From Gemmatimonadaceae bacterium (GTDB lineage: Bacteria; Gemmatimonadota; Gemmatimonadetes; Gemmatimonadales; Gemmatimonadaceae): DNA of 58,265 nucleotides. The stretch is from NCBI GenBank assembly GCA_022843265.1, contig JALHNZ010000019.1, forward strand, positions 1-58,265. The letters are read 5' to 3'. The translations under genes and the position numbers were made by a program. This document shows positions 1 to 20,962 of this stretch, piece by piece. The notes beneath the pieces were generated by a model. That model was not told the DNA's origin and did not search any database. It saw nothing but the letters and a program-made list of their open reading frames with translations. Positions within the stretch are counted from its first letter, which is position 1. Each line of letters starts with the position of its first letter.

Positions 1-890
1 GTAACGCGTTCCACCACAATCGTGGCCAGACTGAATGCCGAGTTGTTGTAGTTGAACTCGGCGCCGGGCTCGTTCTGCAGCTTCGGCGCCCGGTTAACAA
101 CGCGAATGACCTCGGTGGGAGAGATGTAGTCTCCCTCCAGTACCTGACGGCCGCCGATCAAGAGCGTGTTGATGAACTCACGGTATCCGGTCGTGTGCGT
201 GAGCAGATGCCGAACGGTGATCTTCTTGCCGAAGTCTTTCAGCTCGGGGATGTGCTTGCGCACGTCATCATCAAGCGACAGCGCGCCGCGCGATGCCAGC
301 AATGCCACGGCGAACCCGGTGAATTGTTTGGCTGTGGAGCCAATGTTCGTGGGAGTTGTCGCCGTGAAAGGCATGCTGAACGTGAGATCAGCTGCGCCGT
401 ATGCTTTTACCATCGCCAGCTGGCCGTTCCGAATCACGCCCACGACGGCGCCGGGCGTGTCTTCGGAGAGATACGCGGCCGCCTGATCCACCTTGCCTTG
501 CGGCGTGGTGGCCGTGGGCTCCAACCGCGTGAGCCTCGTGCGGACCGCGCCGCTGGTCCCCGCTTTCACCGCGGCAACCTCGATCTTATGCCGGCCCGCC
601 GCTTTTGTGGTGAATACAAAGGCCTCCGGACCGCCACGAGCGATGCGCGAAGCGCGATGCAGTTGCGCGCCATCCGGCCCGGTCACGGTGACCATCACGT
701 CGACGCCGTCTTGATGCACGCGCCCGGCCACGAACCGGCCAGCCGGCAGTACCAGCTCATAGGGGAGCGTGCCATTCGCCGGCAGCGTAGCGGTGACGGC
801 CTGCCCGAGCACCAGACGCGCTGGCTGTTGGGCAGAAGCTTCTGCTGAGAGCAGCAGGAGCATGGGGGCGCAGAGGAGGGACGCTCGCAT
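1..890 (-). CDS. Secreted serine hydrolase, class C beta-lactamase-like (partial, C-terminus beyond window)
   Basis: The reading frame runs open from ATG at 890 to the left edge (about 296 residues), so the C-terminal part is missing. A signal peptide (hydrophobic stretch then ASAQQ, residues 1-21) is followed by a beta-sandwich-like region (about 25-125) and a penicillin-binding/beta-lactamase domain. The nucleophile motif S185-T-A-K188 (SxxK) and Y281-N-N283 (YxN) are visible; the third motif lies outside. The family includes D-alanyl-D-alanine carboxypeptidases, D-aminopeptidases and esterases, all periplasmic or exported. The promoter region holds an inverted repeat at 945-966 related to those before two other operons of this window, so it may belong to the same regulon. 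The exact substrate cannot be told. Confidence 0.85.
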   Translation of the reverse strand, partial: MRASLLCAPMLLLLSAEASAQQPARLVLGQAVTATLPANGTLPYELVLPAGRFVAGRVHQDGVDVMVTVTGPDGAQLHRASRIARGGPEAFVFTTKAAGRHKIEVAAVKAGTSGAVRTRLTRLEPTATTPQGKVDQAAAYLSEDTPGAVVGVIRNGQLAMVKAYGAADLTFSMPFTATTPTNIGSTAKQFTGFAVALLASRGALSLDDDVRKHIPELKDFGKKITVRHLLTHTTGYREFINTLLIGGRQVLEGDYISPTEVIRVVNRAPKLQNEPGAEFNYNNSAFSLATIVVERV

Positions 891-944: not shown

Positions 945-966
945 TTGTCTACAACTTAGTATACTA
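945..966. promoter_or_regulatory. Candidate GntR/FCD operator, 8-6-8 inverted repeat
   Basis: Arms TTGTCTAC and GTATACTA are separated by 6 bp, and the second arm's complement TAGTATAC matches the first at 6 of 8 positions. The right half includes the perfect palindrome TAGTATACTA (957-966). It lies 55-76 bp upstream of the serine hydrolase start at 890. The layout repeats at 15742-15763 and, more weakly, at 8828-8849. FCD-type GntR proteins often bind short GT-N(2-3)-AC palindromes, so the regulator at 8893-9639 is the natural candidate (inference). Confidence 0.5.
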
Positions 967-3052: not shown

Positions 3053-4351
3053 CTACGCGAGCGCCGCCGACGCAATCCGCGCCGCTTCGGCCAACACCGC
3101 TGCCCCCACAAACAGAGCCCCCTCGGCCGCCAGAAACTGCGGCGAATGGGCGGGCGTGGCCGCGCCACCTGGTTCGCGGGCACCGATGCGCAGAAATGCT
3201 CCGGGCATGCGCTCCATGTAGTCGGCAAAATCCTCGCCGGCCATATTGGTGATGCCCAGCGGCACCACGTTCACCTCGCCCACCAGCCCCTGCGCCGCCG
3301 CGCGTGCCCACCCTGCCTCGCGCTCGGGATTTACGATCGGCGGCGGGCCGTTGACAATGTCTACCTCCGCCACGAGATCGTATGCCGCCGCGATCCCTTC
3401 GGCGATGCGCCGGACTTCAGTGGCCACCAAGGCGCGGGTGGCGGAGTCCACCGTGCGAAGTGTCCCGCCGATAGTTGCCGAATCCGGGATCACGTTCAGC
3501 GCCTCCCCCGCCCGCATCGTGGCAACGGTCACGACAGCCGGCACCGATGGGTTGACCCGTCGCGAGACAATGCCCTGAAGCGCGGCGATCAGCATGCCAG
3601 CGCCAAGCACTGGATCGGCCGACTCGTGCGGACGTGCACCGTGGGCCCCACGACCGCGCAGCGTAACAGTGAAGGTGTCCGCAGCGGCCGCCAGGGGTCC
3701 TGGCTGCGCGACCACCTGCCCCACAGGAAAGCGTCGATCTACATGGGCACCGAATATTACCGACACACTATCGAGCGACTTAGAAGCCAGCATAGCAGCA
3801 GCACCATTCCCGGTTTCCTCCGCGGGTTGCAGCACAATGAGCACGTCTCCTGCGGCCGGGTTCTGCGCCAGAAGGCACGCCGCTCCGACTGCCCACGCCG
3901 CGTGCACGTCGTGACCGCAGGCGTGCATCAGTCCATCATGCTTGGACGCCCAGGGCACTCCTGTGGCTTCATGAATCGGGAGCGCATCGATGTCACCGCG
4001 CACCGCGACGATCGGAGCGCTCGGGTCGCGCCCGCGCAGGTGCACCACCAATCCGGTGCCGGCCACGCGTTGCACGGACACGGGCGGCGTATCAATCAGA
4101 AGCTGCGCAAGCGTTCGTTCCAGCGTGGCACAGGTGCGCTCCTCCTGGAACGCCAGTTCCGGATGCTGGTGCAGTTCGCGGCGCAGTGCAATGAGAGACG
4201 TCTGCAGCGGACGTGAGAACTGCGCGAGCACAGCGTCGGGGACACCGCGCAGGTCGATCGCGACATCATCGGTGGGGAGCAGGTGTGAGATCATGCGCTG
4301 AACATTCGCTCGCGTCTCACGCGCGCACCATGGCGTCAAGCGGCGTCGCAA
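3053..4351 (-). CDS. M20D-type amidohydrolase (N-acyl-L-amino-acid deacylase/carboxypeptidase)
   Basis: 432 residues. Family hallmarks are clear: RGDIDALPI, HACGHDVHAA, PAEE, a lid domain with GAHGARPHE, and GEDFADY near the C-terminus. These give the di-metal site of the IAA-amino-acid hydrolase/hippuricase/aminoacylase group. An alternative start is the Met at about residue 20 (MISHLLP). No signal peptide is obvious, so it probably acts in the cytosol. It is the last gene of an operon (26 bp after the D-aminoacylase gene). In the known Geobacillus D-to-L amino-acid pathway an M20 enzyme removes the N-succinyl group from the L product; this protein could play that part together with the GNAT and racemase at 15897-17896 (inference). 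Confidence 0.85.
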   Translation of the reverse strand: MRRRLTPWCARETRANVQRMISHLLPTDDVAIDLRGVPDAVLAQFSRPLQTSLIALRRELHQHPELAFQEERTCATLERTLAQLLIDTPPVSVQRVAGTGLVVHLRGRDPSAPIVAVRGDIDALPIHEATGVPWASKHDGLMHACGHDVHAAWAVGAACLLAQNPAAGDVLIVLQPAEETGNGAAAMLASKSLDSVSVIFGAHVDRRFPVGQVVAQPGPLAAAADTFTVTLRGRGAHGARPHESADPVLGAGMLIAALQGIVSRRVNPSVPAVVTVATMRAGEALNVIPDSATIGGTLRTVDSATRALVATEVRRIAEGIAAAYDLVAEVDIVNGPPPIVNPEREAGWARAAAQGLVGEVNVVPLGITNMAGEDFADYMERMPGAFLRIGAREPGGAATPAHSPQFLAAEGALFVGAAVLAEAARIASAALA

Positions 4352-4377
4352 GCGGCACCGGCGTTCCCAGCCTTTCG

Positions 4378-6027
4378 CTACGGCGCGCCGCTGGTCGCAC
4401 CGGGTCCGCGCAGCACGCGACCCGGGGTCGCGCCCGTGTGTTTGCCCTGCTCCATGACCACCACGCCATTCACCAGCACAACGTCAATGCCGGTCGGTAA
4501 CGCCATCGGATCTTCGTACGTGGCGTGATCCTGCAGCGCCTCAAAGTCAAAGATCGTCACATCGGCCCAGGCACCCACACGAATTGCGCCACGGTCGTCG
4601 AGCCTCATTCTGGTCGCTGGCCAGGACGTCATTTTTCGCACGGCGTCCTCAAGCGTGATCACCTTTCGCGTGCGCACGTAATGAGCGAGTACACGCACCG
4701 GATTACCGTACATGCGTGGATGCGGAAGTCCCGACGCGTCGGCAACGCCGGGAGTCGCAGCTGCCGCAGCATCACTGCCGATGCTCGTCCACGGAAAGCG
4801 CAGCGCCGTTTCAATATCCGGTTCGGACATCATGTGATAGACGGCCGTGACGCGCCCGTTGCCCGCGAGCACAAGATCCCATGCCGCGTCCGCCGGCTCT
4901 TTCCCCGTTTCTGTAGCGATCTGCGCAATGCTCTTGCGTTCGAATTGCGCGTTGTCCGGATTCTGCGCGCTCATGAGCACGACGCGATCCCAACCGCCCG
5001 CGGCTTCCACAATATTCCACCACCCCGGCGAGCCGGTGCTGACTTCGCGCTTGAGCCGCGCGCGAATGGCCGGATCAGCCAGCCGCGCGCGCAATGAGTC
5101 ACGCCCGCCCTCGAACGCCCAGCTCGGAATGGTCGCGTCGAGACTCGTGCCGCCGGCTGTGTACATGTACATGTTTGCGGCCACATCGAGACCGCGCGCG
5201 CGGGCCGCTTCGATCACACGTCCGATCGAATCCATGAGCACGCCCCACGACGGCTGATGCGCAACCTTGAGATGAAAAATCTCTACCGGCGCACCCGATC
5301 GCTCTCCAATCGTGATCGCTTCGCGCACGGACTCCACCACCTCAGCGCCTTCACCGCGAATGTGACTCGCGTAGAATCCGCCGTGCCGGGCCGCGACTTT
5401 CGCCACTTCCACCAGTTCGGCAGTGCTCGCGTAGCTCGCCGGCGGATAGATAAGCGCCGTGCTCATGCCGAGCACACCTGCCCGCATCGCCGTGTCCATG
5501 ATGGCACGCATGCGATCCAGTTCGGCCGGCGTTGGCGCTCGGCTCGACGGACCAATCACCGCCGAACGCGCCTGCACTTCGGCGAAATACGTGCCGAAGT
5601 TGACACTCAATCCCTGCTGCTCAAGCTGCGTGAAATACGACGCGATTTCCGACGCCGGTACCGGCGTGCCGCCTTCACCACCCACCAACGTGGTCACACC
5701 CTGCAGCAACTTGCTCTCGGCGCGTCCGTTCTGTCGCAGCACGCGCCCCGATTGATCGAGCATATCAATCCAACCGGGCGACACGTATTTGCCGCGCGCG
5801 TCGATTTCGCGCGTGCCGCGACCGGTCACGTGACCAATGCGCACAAAACGACCGTTGGCGATGGCGATATCCGCGAGGATCCACGGATTGCCGGCGCCGT
5901 CGAGCACGCGACCATTGCGGATCACGACATCGTACATGGGCTCCGATTGTGCCGCCAATGCAATGAACGGCAGCGCCGCCAGCAGCAACGCGCCGCACGT
6001 CGCGCGCACCCGCAGGTTCGTAGTCAT
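4378..6027 (-). CDS. N-acyl-D-amino-acid deacylase (D-aminoacylase) family amidohydrolase, secreted
   Basis: The start is placed at ATG 6027 (549 residues), preceded by GGAG at good distance. A longer reading would overlap the upstream gene. Signal peptide residues 1-26 (LLLAALPFIALAAQ). The composite beta domain (VIRNGRVLDGAGNPW) and the C-terminal ATYEDPMALPTGIDVVLVNG through TGATPGRVLRG are typical of D-aminoacylases. Ligands equivalent to His220, His250 and Asp366 of the Alcaligenes enzyme are present (SHIRGE, IFHLKVAH, IGSDAAAA). The HxH metal motif after beta1 is replaced by PGWIDMLDQS (84-93), and the bridging Cys region reads GGEGGTP (116-122). Catalysis may thus rest on one metal or on a different bridging ligand. 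Predicted to release D-amino acids from N-acyl forms in the periplasm. Confidence 0.85.
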   Translation of the reverse strand: MTTNLRVRATCGALLLAALPFIALAAQSEPMYDVVIRNGRVLDGAGNPWILADIAIANGRFVRIGHVTGRGTREIDARGKYVSPGWIDMLDQSGRVLRQNGRAESKLLQGVTTLVGGEGGTPVPASEIASYFTQLEQQGLSVNFGTYFAEVQARSAVIGPSSRAPTPAELDRMRAIMDTAMRAGVLGMSTALIYPPASYASTAELVEVAKVAARHGGFYASHIRGEGAEVVESVREAITIGERSGAPVEIFHLKVAHQPSWGVLMDSIGRVIEAARARGLDVAANMYMYTAGGTSLDATIPSWAFEGGRDSLRARLADPAIRARLKREVSTGSPGWWNIVEAAGGWDRVVLMSAQNPDNAQFERKSIAQIATETGKEPADAAWDLVLAGNGRVTAVYHMMSEPDIETALRFPWTSIGSDAAAAATPGVADASGLPHPRMYGNPVRVLAHYVRTRKVITLEDAVRKMTSWPATRMRLDDRGAIRVGAWADVTIFDFEALQDHATYEDPMALPTGIDVVLVNGVVVMEQGKHTGATPGRVLRGPGATSGAP

Positions 6028-6064
6028 ACGGTTCTCATCTCCAGCAGCAGTCGGACTCTCGTGA

Positions 6065-7234
6065 TCACGTGGTCCAGATCTCCGACAGCACGCGACGGAA
6101 GTTGCCACCGAGGATTCCCTCGATGTTCGCGTCGCTGTACTTGCGGCGGATGAGACCCTCCGTCAGGTCATACATGCGCTTCGGATGGTCGAGCCCTTCG
6201 ATGTCGATTTTTTCGCGAAAGCCGTAGCTGCCCTTGTACGAGTTGCGCAGCTGCTGATTGAGCGCCGGCGGCATGGAGTCGTATCCAGACAGACTGATAT
6301 CGCTGCCCACACCGAGGTGTTCGGGTCCGATGAGTTTGGACACATGATCGAAGTGATCGAGTGCGTGCTCAACCGTGGTGGGTTCACGATCACGCACAAA
6401 CATGCGCACGCCGGTTATGCCCATCACACCGCCACTCTTCTTCACCGCGAGAATCGCTTCGTCGGCTTTGTTGCGCGGATGGCCGTTGGTGAGCACGCGC
6501 GCGTTTGAATGCGTGATGAGCACCGGTCGTTTGGAGAGCTCGAACGCGTCAAGCGTTGTACGGTCACCGCAGTGCGACACATCGATCGCCATGCCCACCG
6601 TGTTCATGCGCTCAATAATTGCCGCGCCGAAGTCGCTGATCCCTTCATCGCGACGTTCTGTGGCGCCGTTGCCAATGAGGTTGCGGCTATTGTAGGTGAG
6701 TTGCGATACGCGCTGACCCAAGCCGTGAAAAAAGTCCACGTCGGTGGGACGTCGAAAGTGCTCGGCGTTCTGCAAACCGAGAATCACGGCAATCTTTCCT
6801 GAGGCCTTCACCCGAGCAAAATCATCGACGGAGTCAATGCGCATGAGACGCGTATCGCTGCCGGCGATAAATGCGTTCCATCCGCCAAAGAAGTTGACCG
6901 CATTCTCGTAGGCGTTCGGCCCGCCCGATCCGACCGCTGGATGAAACACATTAATGCCGGAGTCGAGAAACGCCTGAAACTCAGCCTGTGTGAACGATTC
7001 CGGATTGAGATTCCATTTGGTCTGATCCGGAAAATTCAGCGTGAACACGCTCAGCATGTCGATCACAAGTGAGCGCTGTACCAGCGCGATGGCGCGCGCC
7101 GAGTATTGCTGCTGGCTGTGGGCGAAGAGTTTGTAGCGACCAAGGTTGATCATGGGCGCCGCGATCGTGGCGGCGGCCGCAGCGGCTGCGCCAGCGAGCA
7201 GTGAGCGACGAGAGATCGGTGTAGATCGAGTCAT
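6065..7234 (-). CDS. Membrane dipeptidase (M19, renal dipeptidase) family protein with Tat signal
   Basis: ATG at 7234 gives 389 residues starting MTRSTPISRRSLLAG, a twin-arginine signal followed by an Ala-rich hydrophobic stretch. The longer frame to 7615 would overlap the previous gene and is rejected. M19 features: VSHCGDRTTLDAF and ITHSNARVL (two His ligands), HPRN (the Arg that binds the peptide carboxylate) and GVGSDISLSGYD (Asp). The usual HxD near the N-terminus is replaced by VIDMLSVF, and the bridging Glu of GIEGGH appears as GLQNAEH. M19 enzymes cleave dipeptides including those with a C-terminal D residue, and some cleave beta-lactams. Seven bp separate it from the serine hydrolase gene upstream, so they are co-transcribed. 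Confidence 0.85.
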   Translation of the reverse strand: MTRSTPISRRSLLAGAAAAAAATIAAPMINLGRYKLFAHSQQQYSARAIALVQRSLVIDMLSVFTLNFPDQTKWNLNPESFTQAEFQAFLDSGINVFHPAVGSGGPNAYENAVNFFGGWNAFIAGSDTRLMRIDSVDDFARVKASGKIAVILGLQNAEHFRRPTDVDFFHGLGQRVSQLTYNSRNLIGNGATERRDEGISDFGAAIIERMNTVGMAIDVSHCGDRTTLDAFELSKRPVLITHSNARVLTNGHPRNKADEAILAVKKSGGVMGITGVRMFVRDREPTTVEHALDHFDHVSKLIGPEHLGVGSDISLSGYDSMPPALNQQLRNSYKGSYGFREKIDIEGLDHPKRMYDLTEGLIRRKYSDANIEGILGGNFRRVLSEIWTT

Positions 7235-7241
7235 GGCAGGT

Positions 7242-8822
7242 TCACCGGGGAGGCGCAACGCGCGTGTAGGTGTGGCCACTCCAATCAAGTGCGGCCACGC
7301 GACCCGTACCGTCGGGTCGGAAAGCGAGGCGACCTTCGTTCCGAGAACGGTCGCTCCATCGAATTCGAAAGACCTCATACTCCAACGGCACCAGATCACC
7401 AGGCGAGCCATTGGCAAAACGCATGCGCAACGTGTCGGCTGATTGCGCAATGACGATGTCGCCGAACGTCGCGTTCCGATACGTGCCCACGTACTGCGTG
7501 AGCGGCATGCTGTTCTTCGTCTGCGCAACCGGCCGCGACTCGGCGGTACGACGTGCTTCGGCTGTTCGCTGCTCCTGTGCGGCGAACAAGTCGAGCAACG
7601 CCGCACTCCAGTCACGTTTCACAGGACCCGCCGCGTCACCGAGCCGATCGAAGACCTCGTACATGATCGCGTGACGCAGTTCGACGTGATCAGTGTTGGC
7701 GAGTACGTACACGCCCAAACGTTTGTCGGGAATCAAGCCGATGATCGCACTCATACCGTTGATGCTACCGGTATGCATGGCGACCGCCTGGCCATTGTAG
7801 TCCTGCAAAAACCAGCCCAGGCTGTAGAGAAAAAAGTGGGGGCGCGACAGTGCGAGCGCCGGATACGTGGCCGGATCGGCCACGGTCTGCGGCGAGAGCC
7901 AGGCGCGGAATGTCGCTTCGCTAACGAGACGGCGGCCGTCGACGCGACCGGAGTCGAGTACAAAGCGCATCCACTTCGCCATGTCGTTCACACTTGACCA
8001 CACGGAACCTGCGGCGGCGACGGGATCGACGGCGCGGTTGCTCACCACGCGCAGCGTTCCGGTGGCCACGCCGTGCGGCGCTGCCACATTGGGAAGTCCT
8101 TCAACTTTTTTCAGGCTGGTCACGGTGCCGGTCATTCCGAGCGGCGCAATGATGCGCTGCTCGACGAACGCTTCCCATGTGAGCCCCGAAACCGCTTCGA
8201 CCACGGCGCCCGCGACCGCGTACATGATGTTCTGGTACACGAACCCGGAGCGGAACGAGTAGCTGGGCGGCAAGTTGCCGATGCGCTTCAGGATCTCGGC
8301 AGCGGAATAGTCGGTGGCAGTCCAAAGCAGGTCGGCATTGCCAAGCCCTGCGCGGTGCGTGAGCAAGTCACGCACGGTCAGCTCACGCGTCACCCAGGCA
8401 TCCGACATCCGAAACGCGGGCAGGTACTCGATGACGGGCGCATCCCATCGCACCTTGCCTTCATCGACCAGCATGCCGAGTGCCAGGGCGGTCATGGCTT
8501 TCGTGGTAGAACCGATCGCGAATCGCGTGTCGGCGTTCACACGGGCGGGCTTGCCCACCTCGATGAGGCCGTAACCTTTCGAGAGCAGCACACTGTCGTT
8601 GCGCACAATGGCGACCGCCAGGCCGGCCGTCTTCCAGGCATTGGCGGCGGCCGCGATGTCCGCGTCCAAGCGGGCGACAATGTTCGGTGTGCTCTGTGCG
8701 CCTGCGGGGCGCTGCGCGGGCAGCGACCACGCCGAGAGAGCGATTGCCCCAATCGCGGCGGGCAGGAAGGCGAGGCGTGCACGAAGGCGAAACCGGTGCA
8801 CTACAGCCAGGAGAGTAGGCAT
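7242..8822 (-). CDS. Secreted serine hydrolase, class C beta-lactamase/D-aminopeptidase-like, with DUF3471-type tail
   Basis: 526 residues. A signal peptide (about 1-43, ending PAGAQ) precedes the catalytic domain. Motifs: S105-T-T-K108 (SxxK), Y196-Q-N198 (YxN) and H350-T-G352 (KTG equivalent). A C-terminal beta domain (about 435-526, LTQYVGTYRNATFGD) resembles the lipocalin-like DUF3471 tail found on many such enzymes. It opens the operon that continues with M19, D-aminoacylase and M20 genes. A half-conserved operator lies just upstream (8828-8849). Given these neighbours a D-stereospecific aminopeptidase or D,D-peptidase activity is likelier than antibiotic hydrolysis, but sequence alone does not settle it. 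Confidence 0.87.
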   Translation of the reverse strand: MPTLLAVVHRFRLRARLAFLPAAIGAIALSAWSLPAQRPAGAQSTPNIVARLDADIAAAANAWKTAGLAVAIVRNDSVLLSKGYGLIEVGKPARVNADTRFAIGSTTKAMTALALGMLVDEGKVRWDAPVIEYLPAFRMSDAWVTRELTVRDLLTHRAGLGNADLLWTATDYSAAEILKRIGNLPPSYSFRSGFVYQNIMYAVAGAVVEAVSGLTWEAFVEQRIIAPLGMTGTVTSLKKVEGLPNVAAPHGVATGTLRVVSNRAVDPVAAAGSVWSSVNDMAKWMRFVLDSGRVDGRRLVSEATFRAWLSPQTVADPATYPALALSRPHFFLYSLGWFLQDYNGQAVAMHTGSINGMSAIIGLIPDKRLGVYVLANTDHVELRHAIMYEVFDRLGDAAGPVKRDWSAALLDLFAAQEQRTAEARRTAESRPVAQTKNSMPLTQYVGTYRNATFGDIVIAQSADTLRMRFANGSPGDLVPLEYEVFRIRWSDRSRNEGRLAFRPDGTGRVAALDWSGHTYTRVAPPR

Positions 8823-8827
8823 GATTT

Positions 8828-8849
8828 TAGTATACAGTTGTGGGCACTA
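8828..8849. promoter_or_regulatory. Candidate GntR/FCD operator (weaker copy)
   Basis: Left arm TAGTATAC is identical to the complement of the right arm at 945-966. After 6 bp (AGTTGT) the right arm GGGCACTA keeps only 5 of 8 pairs. It starts 6 bp upstream of the serine hydrolase start codon at 8822. The stretch CAGTTGT beside it also follows the site at 15742-15763. Confidence 0.35.
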
Positions 8850-8892
8850 CATAAGCCAACCTACGCCTGCATTTGTCAGCTGGCAAGCGGCC

Positions 8893-9639
8893 CTACCAGC
8901 GACCGATTTCGCCCTGGGCGCTGATTACGTGAGAGAGTCGGTCGGCGGCATTGCGCCAGTTCGTTTCGACCGACCGCTGGGCGCCGTCGGCGTCGCCCGA
9001 TTCGATGGCCCGGTTAATCACTTCGTGCTCTTCAACCGATGTACCGATTGCTCCTCCAAGGGCGCTCACATAAAGGCGGGTGTAGCGCTCCGCCTGCGGC
9101 TTGATCCCCTCGTGCAGTGCCAGCAGCCGCGGTCCCGCCGCCGCCGCGACGTAACTCTGATGAAACGCCATGTCGAGTTCGAAGTACCGCTGAGGCGTAG
9201 CTGGAATCGCTCGCCCGGCACTCGCGAGGTCGCCGTTAAGCGCTCTGAGCTCCGTAACCAGAATGGCGCGCTCGCGCGCTGGTAGCTCTGCGGCCAGCCG
9301 TGCGGCCAGCCCTTCAAGCTGCCCGACCATCAGGAAGAGCTCCCGCGCGTCTGACTGCGTGAGAGGCGCCACCACGAGCCGCTTCTCCTTGGGTCGGTCG
9401 ACGGCCGAGACATAACCCTCTTGCTGCAGTCGGTGCAGCGCACTCCGCACCGGGGTGCGACTCAGCTCCAGGTGATCGGCAATGTCGCTTTCGATGATGC
9501 GCGTGCCCGGAGCCAGCTTCCCCTGTACGATCATCGCGCGCACCTGCTCGTAAGCGCGCGTGATGCTGGCGCCACGTCCGCCACGGGGGCGTTTCGTCGC
9601 GACCTTCGGCTTGGTGGAGGCGACCATCGGAGCGACCAT
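8893..9639 (-). CDS. GntR family transcriptional regulator, FCD (FadR) subfamily
   Basis: 248 residues. The N-terminal winged helix (about 25-95) includes AYEQVRAMIVQGKLAPGTRI, LELSRTPVRSALHRLQQEGYV and VDRPKEKRLVV, the classical GntR pattern. The C-terminal all-helical FCD domain has ELDMAFHQSYV and EEHEVINRAI, supplying the Asp/His residues that bind a metal or carboxylate ligand. It lies 96 bp after the SusCD-hydrolase operon and before the second hydrolase operon, between two sets of genes it is likely to control. FCD regulators usually sense small carboxylic acids or acylated amino acids, which fits the catabolic neighbours (inference). Confidence 0.9.
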   Translation of the reverse strand: MVAPMVASTKPKVATKRPRGGRGASITRAYEQVRAMIVQGKLAPGTRIIESDIADHLELSRTPVRSALHRLQQEGYVSAVDRPKEKRLVVAPLTQSDARELFLMVGQLEGLAARLAAELPARERAILVTELRALNGDLASAGRAIPATPQRYFELDMAFHQSYVAAAAGPRLLALHEGIKPQAERYTRLYVSALGGAIGTSVEEHEVINRAIESGDADGAQRSVETNWRNAADRLSHVISAQGEIGRW

Positions 9640-9735
9640 CGATGTGACGGGAAAGGGCGAAAACGCACTTCGATCACCATACGCGCAGGCGACACAGGCA
9701 AGCTATCACGTTGATCGTCGCAACTGAAACGCCGG

Positions 9736-11331
9736 TCAGTTGCTCGGTGGCGCCGTGGCGTTCGCGGGGGTTCGCGGGGGAGCAAGAGGTCGACGGAAGC
9801 TCACCGGCACACCCACCAGATCGGCCACGAGTTCATTCACCTTGCCAGCCGGAGTTACGCGAAATCCGATGAAGAACGCGGGCAGCACCGGGGTGTCGAA
9901 CTTCACGCGGAAGTTGTCAGCGTTCCAATACTCGAGCGGAGACTGCCAGTTTGGGCCGAACGCGAGATGCAACCCACCGTTTTTCTCCGTCACCACCATC
10001 TGTCCGTGCAAACTATCCACGAACGTGCCGACATACTCGGAGAGCGCGAGCGTCGGTTTCGCATCGGTCGGGCGCGCAGGCGCGCTGCGCGCAGCTGCTG
10101 CGGCACGCGTCCGCGCCTGCTCCTGACGCACGAGGGCTTCGCCCACCCAATCGCGCTCCGTGACGCCAAGCTGCATGTCCATAACGCGGCGAAGCAGCGG
10201 CGTTGGAATGGCCGTGCCGTTCAGATTGGTAAGAATCACCACGCCGAATCGTTCCTCCGGAAGCATGCCGACCAGCGCGGTAAACCCGTCCACGTTACCG
10301 CCGTGGTGCACCAGCAGGCGGCCACGGTAGTCTTCAACGAACCACCCCAACCCGTAGCTGGTGAGGTGCGTGTACGGATTGTTGGCGCGCGCCGCCGAGT
10401 CAATGCGAATGAGCGTTTGCGGTTGACGCATTTCGTCCACTTGTCGACGACTGACAATCTGTTTGCCATCTCGCGCACCGTCAGCCAGATGCAGGCGCAC
10501 CCACTGCGCCATATCCACCACATTCGAATTGATCGAGCCGGCCGCCCCGGCGTTATCGATGTTGCGCCACTTCACGGTAACAGCGCGAGTGCTGTCGTCG
10601 AGAGCGTGAGGAGTGGCACGATTGGTTATGGCATCAATACCGCGAACGGTGGTGCTGCTGCTCGTCATTCCGAGCGGCGCAAATATTTGCGATGCGATGA
10701 ATGCATCCCAGCTGATGCCACTCACCGTTGCCACCACCTGCCCGGCGGCGACATACATCAGGTTCTGATAGCCAAACTGCGACCGCAGGCTCCACGACGG
10801 CGTGAGGAAACGAATGCGTCGTACCAGTTCGTCTCGATCAGCGTCGGAGCCGTACCACGCAAGCTCACCGCGCGCGAGCCCACTGCGATGTGACAGCAGA
10901 TCGCGCACCGTGAGTTCACGCGAGACAAATGGATCGTACATCTGAAAGCTCGGGATGTAACGCGTGACCGGCGCGTCGAGTTCGAGCTTCTTCTCGTCTA
11001 CCAGCTGCGCCACCGCGGCTGCGGTGAACGCCTTTGACGAGGATCCAATGGCGAACACGGTGCGCTCATCAACTGGTATGCCCGTGCCAACATCTCGCAG
11101 GCCGTAGCCACGCGCGTAGATCACCGAATCGTTGCGTACAATGGCGATGGCAAGACCCGGAACCTTGAAGCGCTCGATCGCTCGATTCACGTAGGCGTCG
11201 AGACCCGCGAACGGTTCACGCGCCTGCGCGGCGAGAAGTGTTGGCACTGCACACAGTGTGAACAACGCACTTCGGGCGCCGCGGACAAATCCGATCATTG
11301 TTTGCGTCGCGTTGCAAGGTCCGATCATCAT
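9736..11331 (-). CDS. Secreted serine hydrolase, class C beta-lactamase/D-aminopeptidase-like (paralogue)
   Basis: 531 residues from ATG 11331. A start at 11298 (MIGFVRGARS) would give a cleaner signal peptide ending TLLAAQ. Catalytic motifs: S97-S-S-K100, Y188-Q-N190 and H343-G-G345. The C-terminal domain (about 435-515, LSEYVGTFVDSLHGQMVVTE) matches the tail of the paralogue at 7242-8822. The two proteins share many blocks (RELTVRDLLSHR, APLGMT). It starts 11 bp after the SusD stop codon, so it belongs to the susC-susD transcript, and it probably trims imported peptides in the periplasm. Confidence 0.87.
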   Translation of the reverse strand: MMIGPCNATQTMIGFVRGARSALFTLCAVPTLLAAQAREPFAGLDAYVNRAIERFKVPGLAIAIVRNDSVIYARGYGLRDVGTGIPVDERTVFAIGSSSKAFTAAAVAQLVDEKKLELDAPVTRYIPSFQMYDPFVSRELTVRDLLSHRSGLARGELAWYGSDADRDELVRRIRFLTPSWSLRSQFGYQNLMYVAAGQVVATVSGISWDAFIASQIFAPLGMTSSSTTVRGIDAITNRATPHALDDSTRAVTVKWRNIDNAGAAGSINSNVVDMAQWVRLHLADGARDGKQIVSRRQVDEMRQPQTLIRIDSAARANNPYTHLTSYGLGWFVEDYRGRLLVHHGGNVDGFTALVGMLPEERFGVVILTNLNGTAIPTPLLRRVMDMQLGVTERDWVGEALVRQEQARTRAAAAARSAPARPTDAKPTLALSEYVGTFVDSLHGQMVVTEKNGGLHLAFGPNWQSPLEYWNADNFRVKFDTPVLPAFFIGFRVTPAGKVNELVADLVGVPVSFRRPLAPPRTPANATAPPSN

Positions 11332-11342
11332 GTGCGAAACCG

Positions 11343-12638
11343 TTATCGCCCGATGTTTGGATTGTTCACCCGCTCGACGTCGGGAAGCGGGAAGCAGTTC
11401 TGCGAACCGTAGACGCCACCACCCACCGGGTACGGCGCACCCGTGGCCGGTGTGAGCGCCAGATTGTAGCGGCGAATGTCGCCCAGCCGGTGCCCCTCGA
11501 GGAATAGTTCGCGGCGACGATCTTCGATCAGCGTCGCGCGAATCTGCGCTGCCGTCTGTCCGGCGCCATTGTAGGCCGGCACGCCGGTGCGTGATGCGCG
11601 TACCGTATTGATCGCGGCCACAGCACCCGCCAGATCGCCGGATTCAAGACGCGCCTCGGCAACAATGAACTGCGCCTCCGCGGCACGCGCGATCGGCGTG
11701 AGCGAGGTGACCAGCGGATATTTGTTTGGCGTCCAGATGATTGTGCCCTGCGCCGTGCCGTTCCGGTTCGTGTTCGTCACGGCGACGCGTGGATCTGCGA
11801 CCCCATCGATCGTGAGCCCACGGTACGACACGTCAACGGTCGCGAAGGAGTTCTGGTTAATGGTGAGGAACGAGAAGTTCTGCCGACGTGCGTTCACATT
11901 GTCGGTGCCCGTGTTGGCCACAAAGCTTGCAGGAATTCGCGCGGCATCGGTGGCTGCGGGGCCCAGTTGGCGCAGATTCAGCAGCGTCCGTGCGCGCCCA
12001 AGCAGCGCGAGATTGAGCGTGGCGGCGTCGTTCGCCGCAGTCGCGGACGTGACCGCCGAGTCAAAACGAATTTTGGCTTCGGCAAACAGTTGAGTTGGCG
12101 TGAGCTCCGGACCCACGTTGATCGCCGCCGAACACATGCCCTCGCCCAGCAACACAAGGCTGAGACCGGCGTACGTCGCCGCTTGACCGATTAGCTGTGT
12201 GCGATTTACACCCGAGGGCATATCCGCGTCTTTCCACTCCCGCAAACGCGCGAGCACCGTGTCGGCGCTGCCCCGCGCCCCCGATAACGTGGTGTAGATG
12301 GGCGGCTGCTGATTGGTACCACAGACACCGGTGCCGTAGGTCGCATTGGTCGTCAAACGTCGTGCATCGTAGTCAAAGTTGGCGACCGCTCCGATCGCGT
12401 TCGACAGTTCATCAATGAGCAGTCCGCTGCCAACGACGTATCGCGTATGTGCACATTCGTAATCAGAGATGGCGCCGTTGACGAGGAGTTGGGCGTTCGC
12501 CGGAACGTAGAGTGACGAGGCCGAGACCTGACCGGGGTTGTTCTGCTGAAGCGCCGTGATTTCGGTGCAGGCCGCGAGGCCAATGCAACCGATGCTGGCG
12601 ACGAAGGTGGTGATGGAGGATGTGCGCATGCGACTCAC
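11343..12638 (-). CDS. SusD/RagB family substrate-binding lipoprotein
   Basis: 431 residues, GTG start overlapping the SusC stop codon (GTGA). Lipobox CIGLAAC (Cys about 24) shows a lipoprotein, expected on the cell surface as the lid of the SusC barrel. Helical repeat blocks and the C-terminal signature ARAAEAQFIVAEARLESGD, then LIEDRRRELFLEGHRLGDIR, are typical of SusD/RagB. The protein ends with the usual CFPLPDVERVNNPNI. Its substrate is not visible from sequence. The adjacent peptidase genes suggest peptides, as for RagAB of Porphyromonas, rather than glycans. Confidence 0.9.
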   Translation of the reverse strand: MSRMRTSSITTFVASIGCIGLAACTEITALQQNNPGQVSASSLYVPANAQLLVNGAISDYECAHTRYVVGSGLLIDELSNAIGAVANFDYDARRLTTNATYGTGVCGTNQQPPIYTTLSGARGSADTVLARLREWKDADMPSGVNRTQLIGQAATYAGLSLVLLGEGMCSAAINVGPELTPTQLFAEAKIRFDSAVTSATAANDAATLNLALLGRARTLLNLRQLGPAATDAARIPASFVANTGTDNVNARRQNFSFLTINQNSFATVDVSYRGLTIDGVADPRVAVTNTNRNGTAQGTIIWTPNKYPLVTSLTPIARAAEAQFIVAEARLESGDLAGAVAAINTVRASRTGVPAYNGAGQTAAQIRATLIEDRRRELFLEGHRLGDIRRYNLALTPATGAPYPVGGGVYGSQNCFPLPDVERVNNPNIGR

Positions 12639-15600
12639 CAGGCGACGTTGATGGTGGCAGAGAACATTCGAAGCGGGGGCGTGACGGCCTGATCCAACGC
12701 GACGATCGAGGTGCCGGCGTTGTTGGCGTTGACTTCAGGATCGATGCCGTCGTACTTCGTCCAGGTCATCAGATTACGACCGGCCACTGTGATCGTCGTG
12801 CGCGCGCGCGTCCAGGTCGGCGGCATCGTGTACGAAATCGACATCTCACGCAGTTTGAAGAATGACGCGTCCTGGTAGTACTCCGCCGTGATGCCCTGCG
12901 CCGCCGCCGTCGGTACGACTCCGGCGAGATAGATCGGCGAGAACTCCTCGGGGAACTGATTGGCACGACACAACGGCGCGCCCACCGCACCCGTGCAGCG
13001 CAACTGCTCGACGGCGTTGTGCAAGAGATTGCCTCGACGGAAGTCACCGAGTGCGAAAAGTCGAATGCGTTCACCAAGCCGTAGCGTTGTGCTGATGGCT
13101 CCAGTGAGGCTCGGTGTTGGTGTGCCGATGTTTACAAACGGTGCCTGTGCGCAACCAACTGGTGCCTGCCCCTCGCCGCCGTCGCAGAGCACGTTGGTCG
13201 CCTGCCCGGTGGCGTTGCGATCGGCCGAGACGACGCGTTTTGCGAACACTGCACCGATCGGAAAGCCGACAAGATTGTGGAAGCCAGGATTCGCGACGAC
13301 GTTCTGAATGCCGCCGAGATCAATGATGCGATCGCGGTTGGTCGCCACGTTGCCGCCCAACTCCCACTCCAATCCTGGCCGTGCAATCGCACGCCACGTG
13401 GCGCTTAGCTCGATGCCACGATTGTCAACACGACCAAGGTTGCGAAACTGACTGCCGGGAAATCCGCTGGAGGGTGCGACCGGCTGACTGACGATCTGGT
13501 CGAATGTGCGCTTCGAGAAGTACGTAAAGTCGAGTGTTACGCGTTCAAACAATCCGGCCTCGAAACCCAGCTCCACTTCTTTGCCGCGCTCGGGGCGCAG
13601 GTCCGGGTTGCCGAGAGACGCCGGCGTCACGGCGCGCGAACCATTGGGCCCTGTCGCAGCGGCGAAGGTACGCAACGCGGAGAATGCCGCCGGTTGCCGC
13701 CCCGACTCTCCGTAGGCTGCTCGCAGTCGCAGCGTATTGAACAGGTCTCGCAGCGGGAAGAATGACTCCTCACCAATGACCCACGAACTACTGACCTTGG
13801 GGTATGTCACCCACTTGAAGTCCTGACCGAACGCCGAGTTGTTGTCGACGCGCACGCCCGCCGTGAGGTAGAGGCGTTCGCGCCATGCGAACTGCTGCTC
13901 GGTGTAGGCGCCAATCGTGGTGTTGAGGATTTCTGACTGCGATGACGCGAGTGGGGTGGTCGTGCCGCTCACCACTTCCACGCCGGGGGCCGGGAAGGCA
14001 AGCCCGCCCAGGAAGCTCGTGTTAAGGGCCGTGCGATAGTACTGGCCACCCACGGAGGTGCGTGAGGTCAGCGTGGACGTGAGCGGCAGACTGGCGGTGC
14101 CACTGTAGTCGCCACTGATAATGCTGTTGCGGCGCACCGTCTGGCCGATGCTGCCCGCAGCGGATGCCGGCGCGAGAAACCGTGCGATCTCGGGCGGCGC
14201 GAAACGCTCAAGCGACCGCGCGTCTTCTCCTGTGTAGTCGATACCCGCGATGAGACGCTGCGTAAACCAGGAAACCGGCGCGTTGGAGAGCGTCGCGCTG
14301 ACCGTGATGCGGTCAATGGCATCGGAGTTGTCGTACAGTTGCTGCGGCACCTCCGGGACGGTCGCGAAGAAACCGCGCGTGGCGGTAAAGAGGCTCCCGT
14401 GTCCGACTGATGCACCGAGAAGCGGAGAGGCTCCCACGTCGGCACCAAGACGGTTCGACGCGGTGATGTAGTTCAGGCTCGTCGCAAGATTGGTATTGGG
14501 TCGCAGCTGCACGTCGAGATTCGTGCGCATCGACAGCTGTCGAATGGAGTTGTTCGGTTCGATACCAAGGGAGTTTTCGTAGGTGCCGCTCACGTAGTAT
14601 CGAAACACATCGCGGCTGCCGGAAACCGAGCCGGTGTAGCGACGGACCTGCCCCGTGCGATAGATCGATCGTCCGCTATCGGCTTCAGACTGCAGACCGT
14701 TCCACGTGACGACCGATCCGGTCGCGGGCACGCGATAGTAGTTGGTCGGAACACGGGATTCGGCGTTGGCGAACTCCATCATGCCCTGTTCAACTTGCAT
14801 CGTGAGCTGCGGGCGACTTCCCGCCGCGCCGCGCTTCGTGATGATCTGAATCACGCCGTTCGCCGCTTCGGTGCCGTAGATGGTGGCGGCGGCGGGACCT
14901 TTGATGACTTCGATGCTCTCGATGTCATTGGGGTCGATATCGTTGAGCCGACCAGCGACGGTAGCGCCCTGCCCACCGAGCCGACCCGCGACCGCGAGCG
15001 GACCGGTGCTCGTCGCGCTGTTGATGCGCACGCCGTCCACAAAGATCAGCGGGGCATTTTCAAGACTCAGGCTGTTGCGACCGCGAACCTCGATCGCCGG
15101 TCCCGACCCGAGTCGTCCGCTGCGGGCGCGCACGGTGACACCCGGCGCGCGGGCGCTCAACAGGCTGGTCACGTTCGTGGCGCCGGATTTGCGCAGTTCG
15201 GCTGAGGCGTTGATGGTGGTGACCGCGTTGCCGATCGAGCGCTTTTCCTGCGCGCCTGCGGTACCCGTCACGACCACCTGATCGAGCGCAATGGCGCTGG
15301 GGCTCATCACCAGCGCGATCGTGGCCTCGGCACCAGACCGCACCTCGACCGACGTGCGCGCGGCGGAGAAGCCAATGCGTCTGGCCACAATCTGCTGGGA
15401 GCCGATGGGCACGTTGACAATGCGAAAGCGGCCGTCGCTCGCTGAGGTGCCGACAAGCCCGGTGCCAGCCACTTGCACCAGGACGCCCTCAATCGCGGCA
15501 GTTGAGGCGGCATCCGTCACCCGTCCGACGATCGTGCCCGTCTGCCCCTGTGCGCCGGCAGGCGACAGCAGAGCGAGTAGAGCCACGACGGCGAAACAGG

Positions 15601-15679
15601 CGAAGGGCGAGCGGAGGCGCGTGGCAGTCCGGCACAAGGCGGGACCGCGGAGGGAGCGCCATCCTGGGAAAGGACGCAT
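12635..15679 (-). CDS. SusC/RagA family TonB-dependent outer membrane transporter
   Basis: About 1014 residues from ATG 15679, preceded by CGGAG. A GTG at 15724 would add 15 residues without a ribosome-binding site. Signal peptide (AVVALLALLSPAGAQ) leads into a carboxypeptidase-like regulatory domain (IVGRVTDAASTAAIEGVLV). The plug domain has the SusC signature VFVDGVRI-like (LIFVDGVRINSATS) and IESIEVIKGPAAATIYGTEAANGVI. The beta-barrel ends in aromatic W. With SusD it forms an energised outer-membrane importer. First gene of the susC-susD-hydrolase operon; its promoter region is shared with the divergent GNAT-racemase pair and contains a perfect inverted repeat at 15742-15763. Confidence 0.92.
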   Translation of the reverse strand: MRPFPGWRSLRGPALCRTATRLRSPFACFAVVALLALLSPAGAQGQTGTIVGRVTDAASTAAIEGVLVQVAGTGLVGTSASDGRFRIVNVPIGSQQIVARRIGFSAARTSVEVRSGAEATIALVMSPSAIALDQVVVTGTAGAQEKRSIGNAVTTINASAELRKSGATNVTSLLSARAPGVTVRARSGRLGSGPAIEVRGRNSLSLENAPLIFVDGVRINSATSTGPLAVAGRLGGQGATVAGRLNDIDPNDIESIEVIKGPAAATIYGTEAANGVIQIITKRGAAGSRPQLTMQVEQGMMEFANAESRVPTNYYRVPATGSVVTWNGLQSEADSGRSIYRTGQVRRYTGSVSGSRDVFRYYVSGTYENSLGIEPNNSIRQLSMRTNLDVQLRPNTNLATSLNYITASNRLGADVGASPLLGASVGHGSLFTATRGFFATVPEVPQQLYDNSDAIDRITVSATLSNAPVSWFTQRLIAGIDYTGEDARSLERFAPPEIARFLAPASAAGSIGQTVRRNSIISGDYSGTASLPLTSTLTSRTSVGGQYYRTALNTSFLGGLAFPAPGVEVVSGTTTPLASSQSEILNTTIGAYTEQQFAWRERLYLTAGVRVDNNSAFGQDFKWVTYPKVSSSWVIGEESFFPLRDLFNTLRLRAAYGESGRQPAAFSALRTFAAATGPNGSRAVTPASLGNPDLRPERGKEVELGFEAGLFERVTLDFTYFSKRTFDQIVSQPVAPSSGFPGSQFRNLGRVDNRGIELSATWRAIARPGLEWELGGNVATNRDRIIDLGGIQNVVANPGFHNLVGFPIGAVFAKRVVSADRNATGQATNVLCDGGEGQAPVGCAQAPFVNIGTPTPSLTGAISTTLRLGERIRLFALGDFRRGNLLHNAVEQLRCTGAVGAPLCRANQFPEEFSPIYLAGVVPTAAAQGITAEYYQDASFFKLREMSISYTMPPTWTRARTTITVAGRNLMTWTKYDGIDPEVNANNAGTSIVALDQAVTPPLRMFSATINVAW

Positions 15680-15741
15680 GCGAGGCTCCGACGATCGGGA
15701 AGGAGGGAAGGACGGGTCGGGCACAACCAGTTGCTGAACTT

Positions 15742-15763
15742 CTGTGTACCGGATTGTACACAG
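15742..15763. promoter_or_regulatory. Perfect 8-6-8 inverted repeat in divergent promoter region, candidate GntR operator
   Basis: CTGTGTAC, 6 bp, then GTACACAG: the arms are exact complements. The site is 63 bp upstream of the susC start and 134 bp upstream of the GNAT start, so one bound regulator could govern both divergent units. It shares arm pattern and 6 bp spacing with the site at 945-966. Confidence 0.6.
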
Positions 15764-15896
15764 TTGTGCGCCAAGCTATGTTCGCGTTGGGCGTTCGGCA
15801 AGAGTCGGTCTCGGCGCTTCCCTTCTCCCAGCCCCTCGCACCCCTTAAAACCCGTCAGGTATCCGCCGCGACCTCGCGTCCCGTTCCATCATCCGA

Positions 15897-16778
15897 ATGC
15901 CGACCTCCACTCACGTATCCACCGCCGTTGCTGATGCTCTGCCCGAGGCCCGTGGGGACGACGGCATCGTGGTGCGCCGTGTCCAGTCGCTCGACGAGTT
16001 CCAGGAGTGTGTGCACGTTCAGGAAGAGATCTGGGGCGACGGTTTCCGCGAGCGCGTCCCGGTTGCCATCCTGCTCGTAGCCCAGAAGCTCGGTGGTGTC
16101 TGCGCCGCGGCGTTCGACCCCACGAATCGCATGCTTGGCTTTGTGTTTGGTCTCACCGGCATTCGTGACGGCGTGCTGACTCACTGGTCCGACTTGCTGG
16201 CAGTCCGCGCAGAGGCACGCGGCGCGCACATTGGCGAGCGACTCAAGCGCTTTCAGCGCGAACTGTGTCTCGCGACCGGCGTGCACACGATGCATTGGAC
16301 CTTCGATCCTCTGGTGGCGCGTAACGCGCATCTCAACCTCGTGCGACTGGGCGCGCGCGCGGCCGAATACGTGGTGAACATGTACGGCAGCAATACGGGC
16401 AGCCCGCTGCACGGCGGCGTAGACACCGACCGCTGGATCGCCGCCTGGGACCTCGCTGGCTCCGCATCGACGCCTCGCCAAAGTGCGCCACGCGACGAGG
16501 GTGTGTTTGTGGTGCGACCCTCCGCAGAACACCCCACACTTCCTGAGTGGGTCGACGCGCCGGACTCGCTGGTTGTGCGCGTGGCTGTGCCCGAGGATTA
16601 CGAGCATCTTGCACTATCCGACCGAGTCGTCTGGCGCGACGTGACACGCCGAGCCTTCATGCACTACCTGTCCCGAGGCGGCGTTGTGCTGGGTTTTCAC
16701 CGCGCACGCGGCAACGTGCCGCCTTTCTACGAGATCGCCTGCGATCCCGCCACCCGTGACACGTCCTTGTCCTCATGA
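15897..16778 (+). CDS. GNAT-family N-acyltransferase, partner of N-acylamino-acid racemase
   Basis: 293 residues. The acyl-CoA binding motif A region reads WSDLLAVRAEARGAHIGERLKRFQ (about 99-122), after a beta4 segment RMLGFVFGLTG. The pattern HWTFDPLVARNAHLNLVRLGA is characteristic of the GNAT type encoded beside enolase-superfamily racemases. The stop overlaps the racemase start by 4 bp (ATGA), so translation is coupled. In Geobacillus kaustophilus the equivalent enzyme transfers a succinyl group from succinyl-CoA to D-amino acids, the first step of irreversible D-to-L conversion. The same role is inferred here from gene order. No signal peptide; cytosolic. Confidence 0.82.
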   Translation: MPTSTHVSTAVADALPEARGDDGIVVRRVQSLDEFQECVHVQEEIWGDGFRERVPVAILLVAQKLGGVCAAAFDPTNRMLGFVFGLTGIRDGVLTHWSDLLAVRAEARGAHIGERLKRFQRELCLATGVHTMHWTFDPLVARNAHLNLVRLGARAAEYVVNMYGSNTGSPLHGGVDTDRWIAAWDLAGSASTPRQSAPRDEGVFVVRPSAEHPTLPEWVDAPDSLVVRVAVPEDYEHLALSDRVVWRDVTRRAFMHYLSRGGVVLGFHRARGNVPPFYEIACDPATRDTSLSS

Positions 16779-17896
16779 CCTGCCTCGCCCAGCTGTCGCT
16801 CCGGGAAATTCGTTTACCACTGCGCGAGCCGTTCCGCATCTCATCCGGCGAAGTCACGGAACGACGCATCATGCTGCTCGAGCTGCGTGATGCAGACGGC
16901 GTCACTGTGTGGAGCGAGGGTGTGGCCGGTGAGCAGCCCAACTACAGCCCCGAAGCGATCGACACGGTGTGGATCGCAGTCACGCAGTGGGTCGCGCCGC
17001 GCGTGCTAGGGCGAGAGTTTGCTCAACCGCACGACGTCTTTCCCGTGCTCGAAGCCGACTTCCGTGGCAATCTCATGGCCAAGGCGGCCGTGGAAATGGG
17101 CATGTGGGTGCTTGAAGCGCAGCGACAGGGTGTGCCGCTCGCGCGTTTACTCGGCGGCACGCGCGAGGCAATCGCCACCGGCATCTCGCTCGGCATTCAA
17201 GCATCTCCTGAGGCGCTCGTGTTGAAGGCGAAGGCCGCGATCGCCGAGGGCTATCGCAAGGTGAAGATCAAGATTGCGCCCGGTTACGATGTGTCGTACG
17301 TGCGCGCCGCGCGTGAAGCGTTGCCCGATGCGCCGCTCATGGCTGACGCCAACAACGCGTACACATTGCACGATATCGATCTGCTCGCGCAGCTCGACGA
17401 GTTCAATCTCATGATGATCGAACAGCCGCTGGCCTGGGACGACGTCGTGCAGCACGCCACGCTGCAAAAGCGATTGCGCACACCGATTTGTCTTGACGAG
17501 TCCATTACATCGCTGGACAAGGCGCGCGACATGGTTGCGCTGGACGCGGGCCGCATTGTGAATATCAAACCCGGGCGAGTGGGCGGATTCGCCAGTTCGC
17601 TCGCCATTCACGACTACTGTGTGTCGCAGGACATCCCGGTGTGGTGCGGTGGCATGCTGGAGAGCGGCATCGGTCGGGCGTGCAACGTCGCGCTCGCGTC
17701 GCTCCCCGGGTTTACGAAACCCGGTGATCTTTCGCCGAGCGCGCGTTACTGGGCGCGTGATGTCGTCACGCCTGAGTGGACCATGAGCAGTGACGGCATG
17801 GTGCAGGTGCCAACGCAGGCGGGACTGGGTGTCGCGGTGGATGTGGACCGCATTGACGAGTTGACGGTGCGACGGGTGGTGTTGCAGATGGGGTGA
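16775..17896 (+). CDS. Enolase-superfamily N-succinyl/N-acylamino-acid racemase (o-succinylbenzoate synthase-like)
   Basis: 373 residues, normal length for the OSBS/NAAAR group. Catalytic bases: K164-I-K166 and K265 (NIKPGRVGG). Metal ligands: D191 (MADANNAY), E216 (MIEQPLAWDD) and D241 (ICLDES). The C-terminal WCGGMLESGIGRACNVALASL, here at about residues 291-311, is typical of the group that has both o-succinylbenzoate synthase and N-acylamino-acid racemase activity. No other menaquinone genes are in the window, whereas the GNAT partner and an M20 deacylase are. N-succinylamino-acid racemase is therefore the preferred role. MenC function for menaquinone cannot be excluded. Confidence 0.88.
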   Translation: MTCLAQLSLREIRLPLREPFRISSGEVTERRIMLLELRDADGVTVWSEGVAGEQPNYSPEAIDTVWIAVTQWVAPRVLGREFAQPHDVFPVLEADFRGNLMAKAAVEMGMWVLEAQRQGVPLARLLGGTREAIATGISLGIQASPEALVLKAKAAIAEGYRKVKIKIAPGYDVSYVRAAREALPDAPLMADANNAYTLHDIDLLAQLDEFNLMMIEQPLAWDDVVQHATLQKRLRTPICLDESITSLDKARDMVALDAGRIVNIKPGRVGGFASSLAIHDYCVSQDIPVWCGGMLESGIGRACNVALASLPGFTKPGDLSPSARYWARDVVTPEWTMSSDGMVQVPTQAGLGVAVDVDRIDELTVRRVVLQMG

Positions 17897-18868: not shown

Positions 18869-19098
18869 CAGCACTCCGTAGAGTTGGAAGACCCACGGCT
18901 ATCTGGCTCGATGCGTCGCCGTGTCCAACAGTAGGCGGAAGCTGGCGCCGTTTCAGCTCACGCCCGCATGTCTGTTTTGCAACTAGACGCGCGCTTCTGC
19001 AGCAAACGCGAACACCTATGCAAGCGGGGTGTTCGATGTGGCGCGAGGGAGTCCGCCAGCGTTTCGCGGCGCGCAAGCCGATCGATACGACCTTTCCT

Positions 19099-20864: not shown

Positions 20865-20962
20865 GCCATATGCTACGCGCCCGTGGCAGATGGCGGAATG
20901 GCAGTGGTCGGCCTGGACTCGCAGTTTGCGCTCACGAAACCGCACGGCGATCTTCGGCTGTC

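Follow-up and report, generated by a model that had tools for sequence, protein, structure and literature searches.

A candidate GntR-linked locus for the use of D-residue peptides, and its possible spread in Gemmatimonadota

Whether genes for outer-membrane uptake, exported hydrolases and amino acid racemization that lie side by side serve one pathway for the use of D-residue peptides is the question raised by contig JALHNZ010000019.1 of the Gemmatimonadaceae assembly GCA_022843265.1. The stretch analysed (hereafter the window; 58,265 nucleotides) is the entire contig (G000:C19), and the genome comprises 4.63 Mb at 95% completeness. From the letters of the DNA it had been predicted that positions 3053-17896 capture D-amino-acid peptides and convert D- to L-amino acids, by means of a minus-strand block of SusCD, two serine hydrolases, M19, D-aminoacylase and M20 homologues and a GntR regulator, divergent from a plus-strand pair encoding a GNAT acyltransferase and an N-acylamino acid racemase (NAAAR). 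D-amino acids and D-residue peptides persist in soil and sediment organic matter, and the known bacterial catabolism of D-amino acids proceeds mostly via oxidases and dehydrogenases. If the reading is true, the locus would offer a complete route from uptake to assimilation without amino acid oxidation, in a phylum that is widespread yet little studied.

As a whole, we consider it reasonably probable that the window carries a GntR-controlled utilisation locus for D-residue peptides or N-acyl amino acids. The original prediction stood in part: the GNAT, NAAAR and M20 genes as one unit and the link to SusCD were upheld, whereas D-specific cleavage was not; likewise, the gene set was correct but its extent too short, since the set includes one more serine hydrolase, encoded on the minus strand at positions 3-890.

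The GNAT-NAAAR-M20 triad

Scans with Pfam and NCBIfam profiles recovered all the families named in the minus-strand block and, together with PDB matches, the divergent racemase; the GNAT was the exception, its assignment using fold and homologues. The NAAAR (16775..17896, plus strand) aligns over its whole length with PDB 2ggg/2zc8, the closest PDB chains being N-acylamino acid racemases (~1e-96), and K164, K166, D191, E216, D241, K265 and R268 are invariant in an alignment of 13 sequences. The KxK motif, the Asp/Glu/Asp metal ligands and the second catalytic Lys of the NSAR/OSBS subfamily are all present. The GNAT frame (15897..16778, plus strand) overlaps that of NAAAR by 4 bp. This protein had no Pfam match of its own and, searched alone against the PDB with phmmer, gave nothing useful; PF13508 was matched weakly by 21 of 24 GNAT homologues. 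Its AlphaFold2 model (pLDDT 89.5) returned with Foldseek 50 listed PDB matches, which are acetyltransferases or complexes containing one, and on this model the protein is a GNAT of acetyltransferase fold. The nearest named relatives of the GNAT come from metagenome-assembled genomes of Gemmatimonas and Gemmatimonadaceae.

In the window, the M20 amidohydrolase/deacylase gene (3053..4294, minus strand; TIGR01891, 332 bits; PDB 1ysj, 3e-78) stands last in the minus-strand block, away from NAAAR. In contrast, M20 directly follows NAAAR in 35 of the 40 loci taken around the closest NAAAR matches, where GNAT, NAAAR and M20 lie in a row. In the tree, the window M20 falls inside the clade of NAAAR-adjacent M20 proteins, beside its two nearest relatives, and the proposed link of the distant M20 to the divergent pair was therefore right. 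Among 80 loci of named genomes, the GNAT-NAAAR pair was found in 73 (several of the other seven being cut by contig ends) and M20 in 48. Named loci with the pair belong mostly to Gemmatimonadota, with others in Acidobacteria, Ignavibacteriales, KSB1, Hydrogenedentes and Bacteroidetes bins. Indeed, the synteny search that had been proposed brought the block genes back around GNAT-NAAAR in the 40 relative and the 80 named-genome loci (the genomes overlapping in part), and the gene set is beyond chance because of this recurrence.

A GNAT, a racemase and an M20 hydrolase are therefore joined in one gene set, as in the Geobacillus-type triad, and by homology the triad is likely to perform D-to-L conversion. 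Moreover, no DadA profile match above cut-off was found in the own genome or in nine relatives, D-amino acid oxidases not having been searched for; this would allow the triad to serve as a route for D-amino acids. Across 99 genomes (the own genome and its relatives), NAAAR matches at E < 1e-30 occurred in 64, some of them being paralogues of lower identity. Two copies per genome were seen in G019 (locus L035) and G020 (C4), those of G019 lying about 15 kb apart at opposite ends of one locus. A second type of locus (L108, L115, L130, L135, L136 and L148), with NAAAR identity of about 50%, has, upstream of GNAT-NAAAR, oxidase genes resembling GlcD and GlcF together with another M20, so that the M20 changes and the pair stays.

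Since the best NCBIfam model for NAAAR is that of o-succinylbenzoate synthase (OSBS; TIGR01928, 322 bits, above cut-off), and the NSAR/OSBS family is known as promiscuous, the gene could encode the MenC of menaquinone synthesis, or a dual enzyme, with incidental neighbours. We regard this as hardly credible. MenD is absent from the own genome (95% complete) and exceeds the cut-off in just three of the 99 genomes, whereas MqnC of the futalosine route does so in 87, the own genome included, and NAAAR travels with GNAT. Because MenD is absent and MqnC present, no pathway in this organism seems to need OSBS, and the menaquinone role was discarded on these grounds; the co-occurrence with menaquinone genes named beforehand as a refutation of the prediction did not appear. 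Three genomes (G014, G034 and G073) show the reverse of most relatives, with MenD present and MqnC missing, a switch of menaquinone route; the two routes therefore replace each other.

The palindromic operator and its probable GntR regulator

A 22-bp palindrome, TTGTATACAA N3 TGTATACAA, was identified in GNAT promoters. The window holds one copy, CTGTGTACCGGATTGTACACAG, in the divergent SusC/GNAT promoter (15742..15763) and another, TTGTCTACAACTTAGTATACTA, before the serine hydrolase gene SH0 (945..966), while the GNAT promoters of many relatives carry a single TTGTATACAA or two spaced by about 12 bp. An exact TTGTATACAA is found in 15 of 102 GNAT upstream regions, compared with 0.5% of random stretches; if up to two mismatches are allowed, the figures rise to 31 of 102 and 3.4%. 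Furthermore, the site goes with a gene homologous to the GntR/FCD regulator of the window (8893..9639, minus strand; PF07729, PF00392): both are present in 26 loci, the site alone in five, the GntR gene alone in four and neither in 67 (Fisher p 2.8e-15, uncorrected for genome relatedness), which places the gene in 26/31 loci with the site and 4/71 without it. GntR genes occur in 22 of 103 non-redundant loci. The loci, 2.0 Mb in total and without removal of duplicates, contain 42 near-exact sites, of which 37 stand directly before genes of the block.

The site at 945-966 is the only match with up to three mismatches to the 22-bp consensus TTGTATACAANNNTGTATACAA in the 4.63 Mb of the genome, the reversed control giving none. 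Four weaker matches (C16, C62, C84 and C100), in or near unrelated genes, were at control level and were set aside. The same consensus search in eleven other genomes returned eleven places and none with the reversed control; six of these are in NAAAR loci and three before S12 serine hydrolases (G034, G029 and G055). Of the other two, one (G037, distal) is flanked by the genes for a GntR homologue of 59% identity and for an amino-acid permease assigned by eye to the APC type; the last, a strong site in G048:C14, is inside an MFS coding sequence and was read as chance.

Given the co-occurrence of site and GntR gene and the position of the sites before block genes, the GntR protein probably controls the genes on either side of the divergent promoter, where it would bind the palindrome. 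A scan of this promoter for sigma-70 elements and terminators returned nothing. The shared operator motif is a regulatory link absent from the original prediction; being conserved, it opens the regulon and, by way of its inducer, the substrate to direct tests. Three transcription units can be proposed from the gene spacing: SusC-SusD-SH1, SH2-M19-DAA-M20 and GNAT-NAAAR (DAA denoting the D-aminoacylase-like gene), with GntR between the first two. A weak operator-like site, TAGTATACAGTTGTGGGCACTA, stands just before SH2 (8828..8849; position weight matrix score 14.8; a half-site with two mismatches) and may be there by chance.

The operator at 945-966 lies 55 bp upstream of SH0 and 158 bp upstream of the start of a divergent, lipoprotein-like multicopper oxidase gene (1124-2992, plus strand), and it probably belongs to SH0, which explains the site better than the oxidase does. 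The oxidase was rejected as a block member: it is unmatched near the locus in the closest relatives, with only paralogues of up to 48% identity elsewhere. Directly past NAAAR are a PEP-CTERM protein gene (17996-18874, minus strand) and another S12-type serine hydrolase gene (19683-20945, minus strand), and no operator-like site was found near either.

Possible SusCD uptake, exported hydrolases and the substrate

The SusC/RagA-like TonB-linked transporter (12635..15679, minus strand; TIGR04056, 423 bits) and the SusD/RagB-like outer-membrane lipoprotein (11343..12629, minus strand; PF07980, 6.7e-14) both exceed their cut-offs, and a lipobox was seen by eye in SusD. Start codons were placed later than those of the longest open reading frames for these two genes (15679 and 12629) as well as for M20 (4294), DAA (6027) and M19 (7234). 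Since the genomes contain 15 to 39 SusC matches each, SusC proximity alone proves little. In this context, we asked which copy best matches the window SusC. In G019, G020, G034, G035, G037 and G091 it is the copy beside GNAT-NAAAR, with 43-65% identity (in G035 about 10 kb from the pair), that is, in six of the seven other genomes with SusC in the locus; genomes without the link have best matches of 40-42% elsewhere. Accordingly, the neighbourhood of SusCD and the pair, whose absence elsewhere had been named as a refutation, recurs through an orthologous SusC in six other genomes, and the link is real, though not universal.

The same observations bear on another explanation, that D-amino acids set free as the cell turns over its own murein are detoxified or recycled by the triad, which merely adjoins an ordinary peptide-scavenging operon of SusCD and hydrolases. 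Most relatives have the triad without SusCD, and cell-wall turnover also yields free D-amino acids; however, the SusC linked in six other genomes is orthologous, the operator sits in the promoter shared by SusC and GNAT, and the same type of site precedes S12 hydrolases even at distant loci. We consider this explanation unlikely and favour a utilisation locus, in which the import of D-residue peptides by SusCD has about an even chance of being correct. In a group of relatives (L034, L036, L075, L093, L127, L140, L151 and L152), an exported hydrolase assigned by eye to the S15/CocE type lies near the locus, and in L034 it occupies the place that SusCD has in the window.

The hydrolases of the set comprise three S12 serine hydrolases and two metalloenzyme-like proteins. 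SH1 (9736..11331, minus strand; PF00144, 9e-72) and SH2 (7242..8822, minus strand; PF00144, 8e-66), both with DUF3471, contain the S12 motifs SxxK, YxN and HxG as SSSK/YQN/HGG and STTK/YQN/HTG, respectively; SH0 (3..890, minus strand; PF00144, 1.5e-34), which has a signal peptide, shows STAK and YNN, its 3' end being lost where the contig ends before the third motif. DAA (4378..6027, minus strand) has the D-aminoacylases 1rjp and 1m7j as best PDB matches (7e-65), and the M19 dipeptidase-like protein (6065..7234, minus strand; PF01244, 2.4e-73, 247 bits) is closest to PDB 2i5g. By eye, DAA, SH1 and SH2 carry signal peptides and M19 a Tat-like RR leader, while M20, GNAT and NAAAR have no signal peptide.

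Several points weigh against a locus devoted to D-residue peptides. S12 enzymes include D-aminopeptidases and DD-peptidases, and also esterases and beta-lactamases; NCBIfam gave weak matches to several of these kinds. DAA keeps both metal-binding His and the catalytic Asp and lacks the HxH pair, with Glu at the position of the metal-binding Cys (Cys96); it departs from the subtype V D-aminoacylase site (Cys/His/His, HxH and Asp) and is D-aminoacylase-like, not a member. The related PpOngB becomes inactive when either His of this pair is changed (His68Ala or His70Ala; PMC12017989). The M19 protein, in PF01244 by profile, retains two His metal ligands of the renal-dipeptidase site (HxD, bridging Glu, two His), lacks HxD and has, by alignment, Gln where the bridging Glu would stand, as does 2i5g. 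Neither protein need have the textbook activity, their metal sites being non-canonical. D-specific periplasmic cleavage, as had been proposed, was thus not borne out; the D-specificity of the locus is what we infer, and family assignments do not prove it. Moreover, NAAAR is missing from three of the four other genomes of the genus. SusC-like genes are near just 17 of the 103 non-redundant loci, so that SusCD uptake is accessory to the core, and the in-locus SusC of G033 is a more distant protein (31%), not an orthologue, the best match lying elsewhere in that genome. In addition, an inner-membrane transporter was not identified within the window; in six relatives, a permease assigned by eye to the APC type lies close to the locus, and one of the six is G026, which has the highest NAAAR identity of the relatives with a full locus.

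The altered metal motif of DAA is common to most relatives in these loci, and DAA-like genes occur in 31 of 103 non-redundant loci. Judged from alignments, both DAA and M19 appear as conserved subgroups rather than decayed genes; across loci L035-L073, their homologues form conserved subgroups without the textbook HxH and HxD motifs.

These active sites, and the presence of esterases in S12, leave space for a different substrate, namely N-acyl-amino acids, lipopeptides or modified L-peptides, with S12 esterases or amidases and a triad that deals with the racemic or N-acylated amino acids set free by them. We find this quite unlikely, as a GNAT paired with a racemase implies free amino acids that need acylation first, and D-specific members are known in several of the families found here. 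In its favour, the D-aminoacylase-like family includes a GlcNAc1A deacetylase (PMC12017989).

From the conserved gene sets and site, we infer the activities of a utilisation locus for D-residue peptides or N-acyl amino acids as follows. SusCD would bring these substrates across the outer membrane, and, as their families and leaders suggest, the exported SH0, SH1, SH2, M19-like and DAA-like proteins would break them down in the periplasm, yielding free D- and L-amino acids. An inner-membrane transporter, for which APC permeases near the locus or with the same operator in relatives are the candidate type, would take the amino acids in. In the cytoplasm, by homology with Geobacillus, GNAT would N-acylate D-amino acids, NAAAR would equilibrate the N-acyl-D and N-acyl-L forms, and M20 would deacylate the L form only, pulling the reaction forward and making the conversion irreversible. 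GntR may repress the GNAT, SusC and serine-hydrolase genes from the TTGTATACAA-type sites in front of them and would probably be released by an acyl- or D-amino acid. That such a D-peptide locus and GntR regulon is widespread in Gemmatimonadota, combining SusCD, modular exported hydrolases (among them metalloenzymes whose metal sites are unusual), the triad and one palindromic operator, is a tentative proposal, a little short of evenly balanced.

Comparison with known systems

What is already known is the triad, which corresponds to the Geobacillus pathway; what seems new is its joining to SusCD, the hydrolase set and the operator. The DgcN-DgcA pathway acylates, racemises and then uses the L form, a scheme that the window would share; however, the window NAAAR scores 111 bits on the DgcA model, whose cut-off is 400, and belongs to another branch of the enolase superfamily. 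DgcN-DgcA is named as a D-glutamate pathway of marine bacteria (PMC10845958).

In Geobacillus kaustophilus, a GNAT D-amino acid N-succinyltransferase, an N-succinylamino acid racemase and an N-succinyl-L-amino acid hydrolase form the D-to-L pathway (Sakai et al., 2006, doi 10.1021/bi060230b, as relayed in PMC8762209). The same three enzyme types are present here, the GNATs being likened by enzyme type, with GNAT and NAAAR adjacent and M20 usually next; unlike in Geobacillus, they are accompanied by SusCD, by exported hydrolases, and by a GntR/FCD gene together with a conserved palindromic operator. The full combination of triad, SusCD, hydrolase set and operator was not found described in the open-access literature, subscription papers lying mostly outside this scope, in agreement with the earlier remark that no description was known.

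In a marine gammaproteobacterium, a TonB-dependent transporter beside a D-aminoacylase gene was noted in 2012, with the same guess at the substrate (PMC3400609), whereas the part of that report drawn on here describes no racemase/GNAT triad, SusD or operator. AfDam/BbDam and PpOngB (PDB 1m7j and 3gip; PMC12017989) belong to the same family as DAA, which keeps both His ligands and the catalytic Asp; unlike them, the window protein and most of its relatives are without HxH and have Glu for the metal-binding Cys. Thus, the loci hold D-aminoacylase-like and M19 subgroups with metal sites unlike those of characterised members. Finally, SusCD, exported hydrolases and a linked regulator are features shared with two kinds of system in Bacteroidota, polysaccharide utilisation loci and peptide uptake through RagAB/SusCD (PMC11817032); here, in contrast, the hydrolases are of peptidase and amidase types, the regulator is a GntR protein and the pathway would end in D-to-L conversion.

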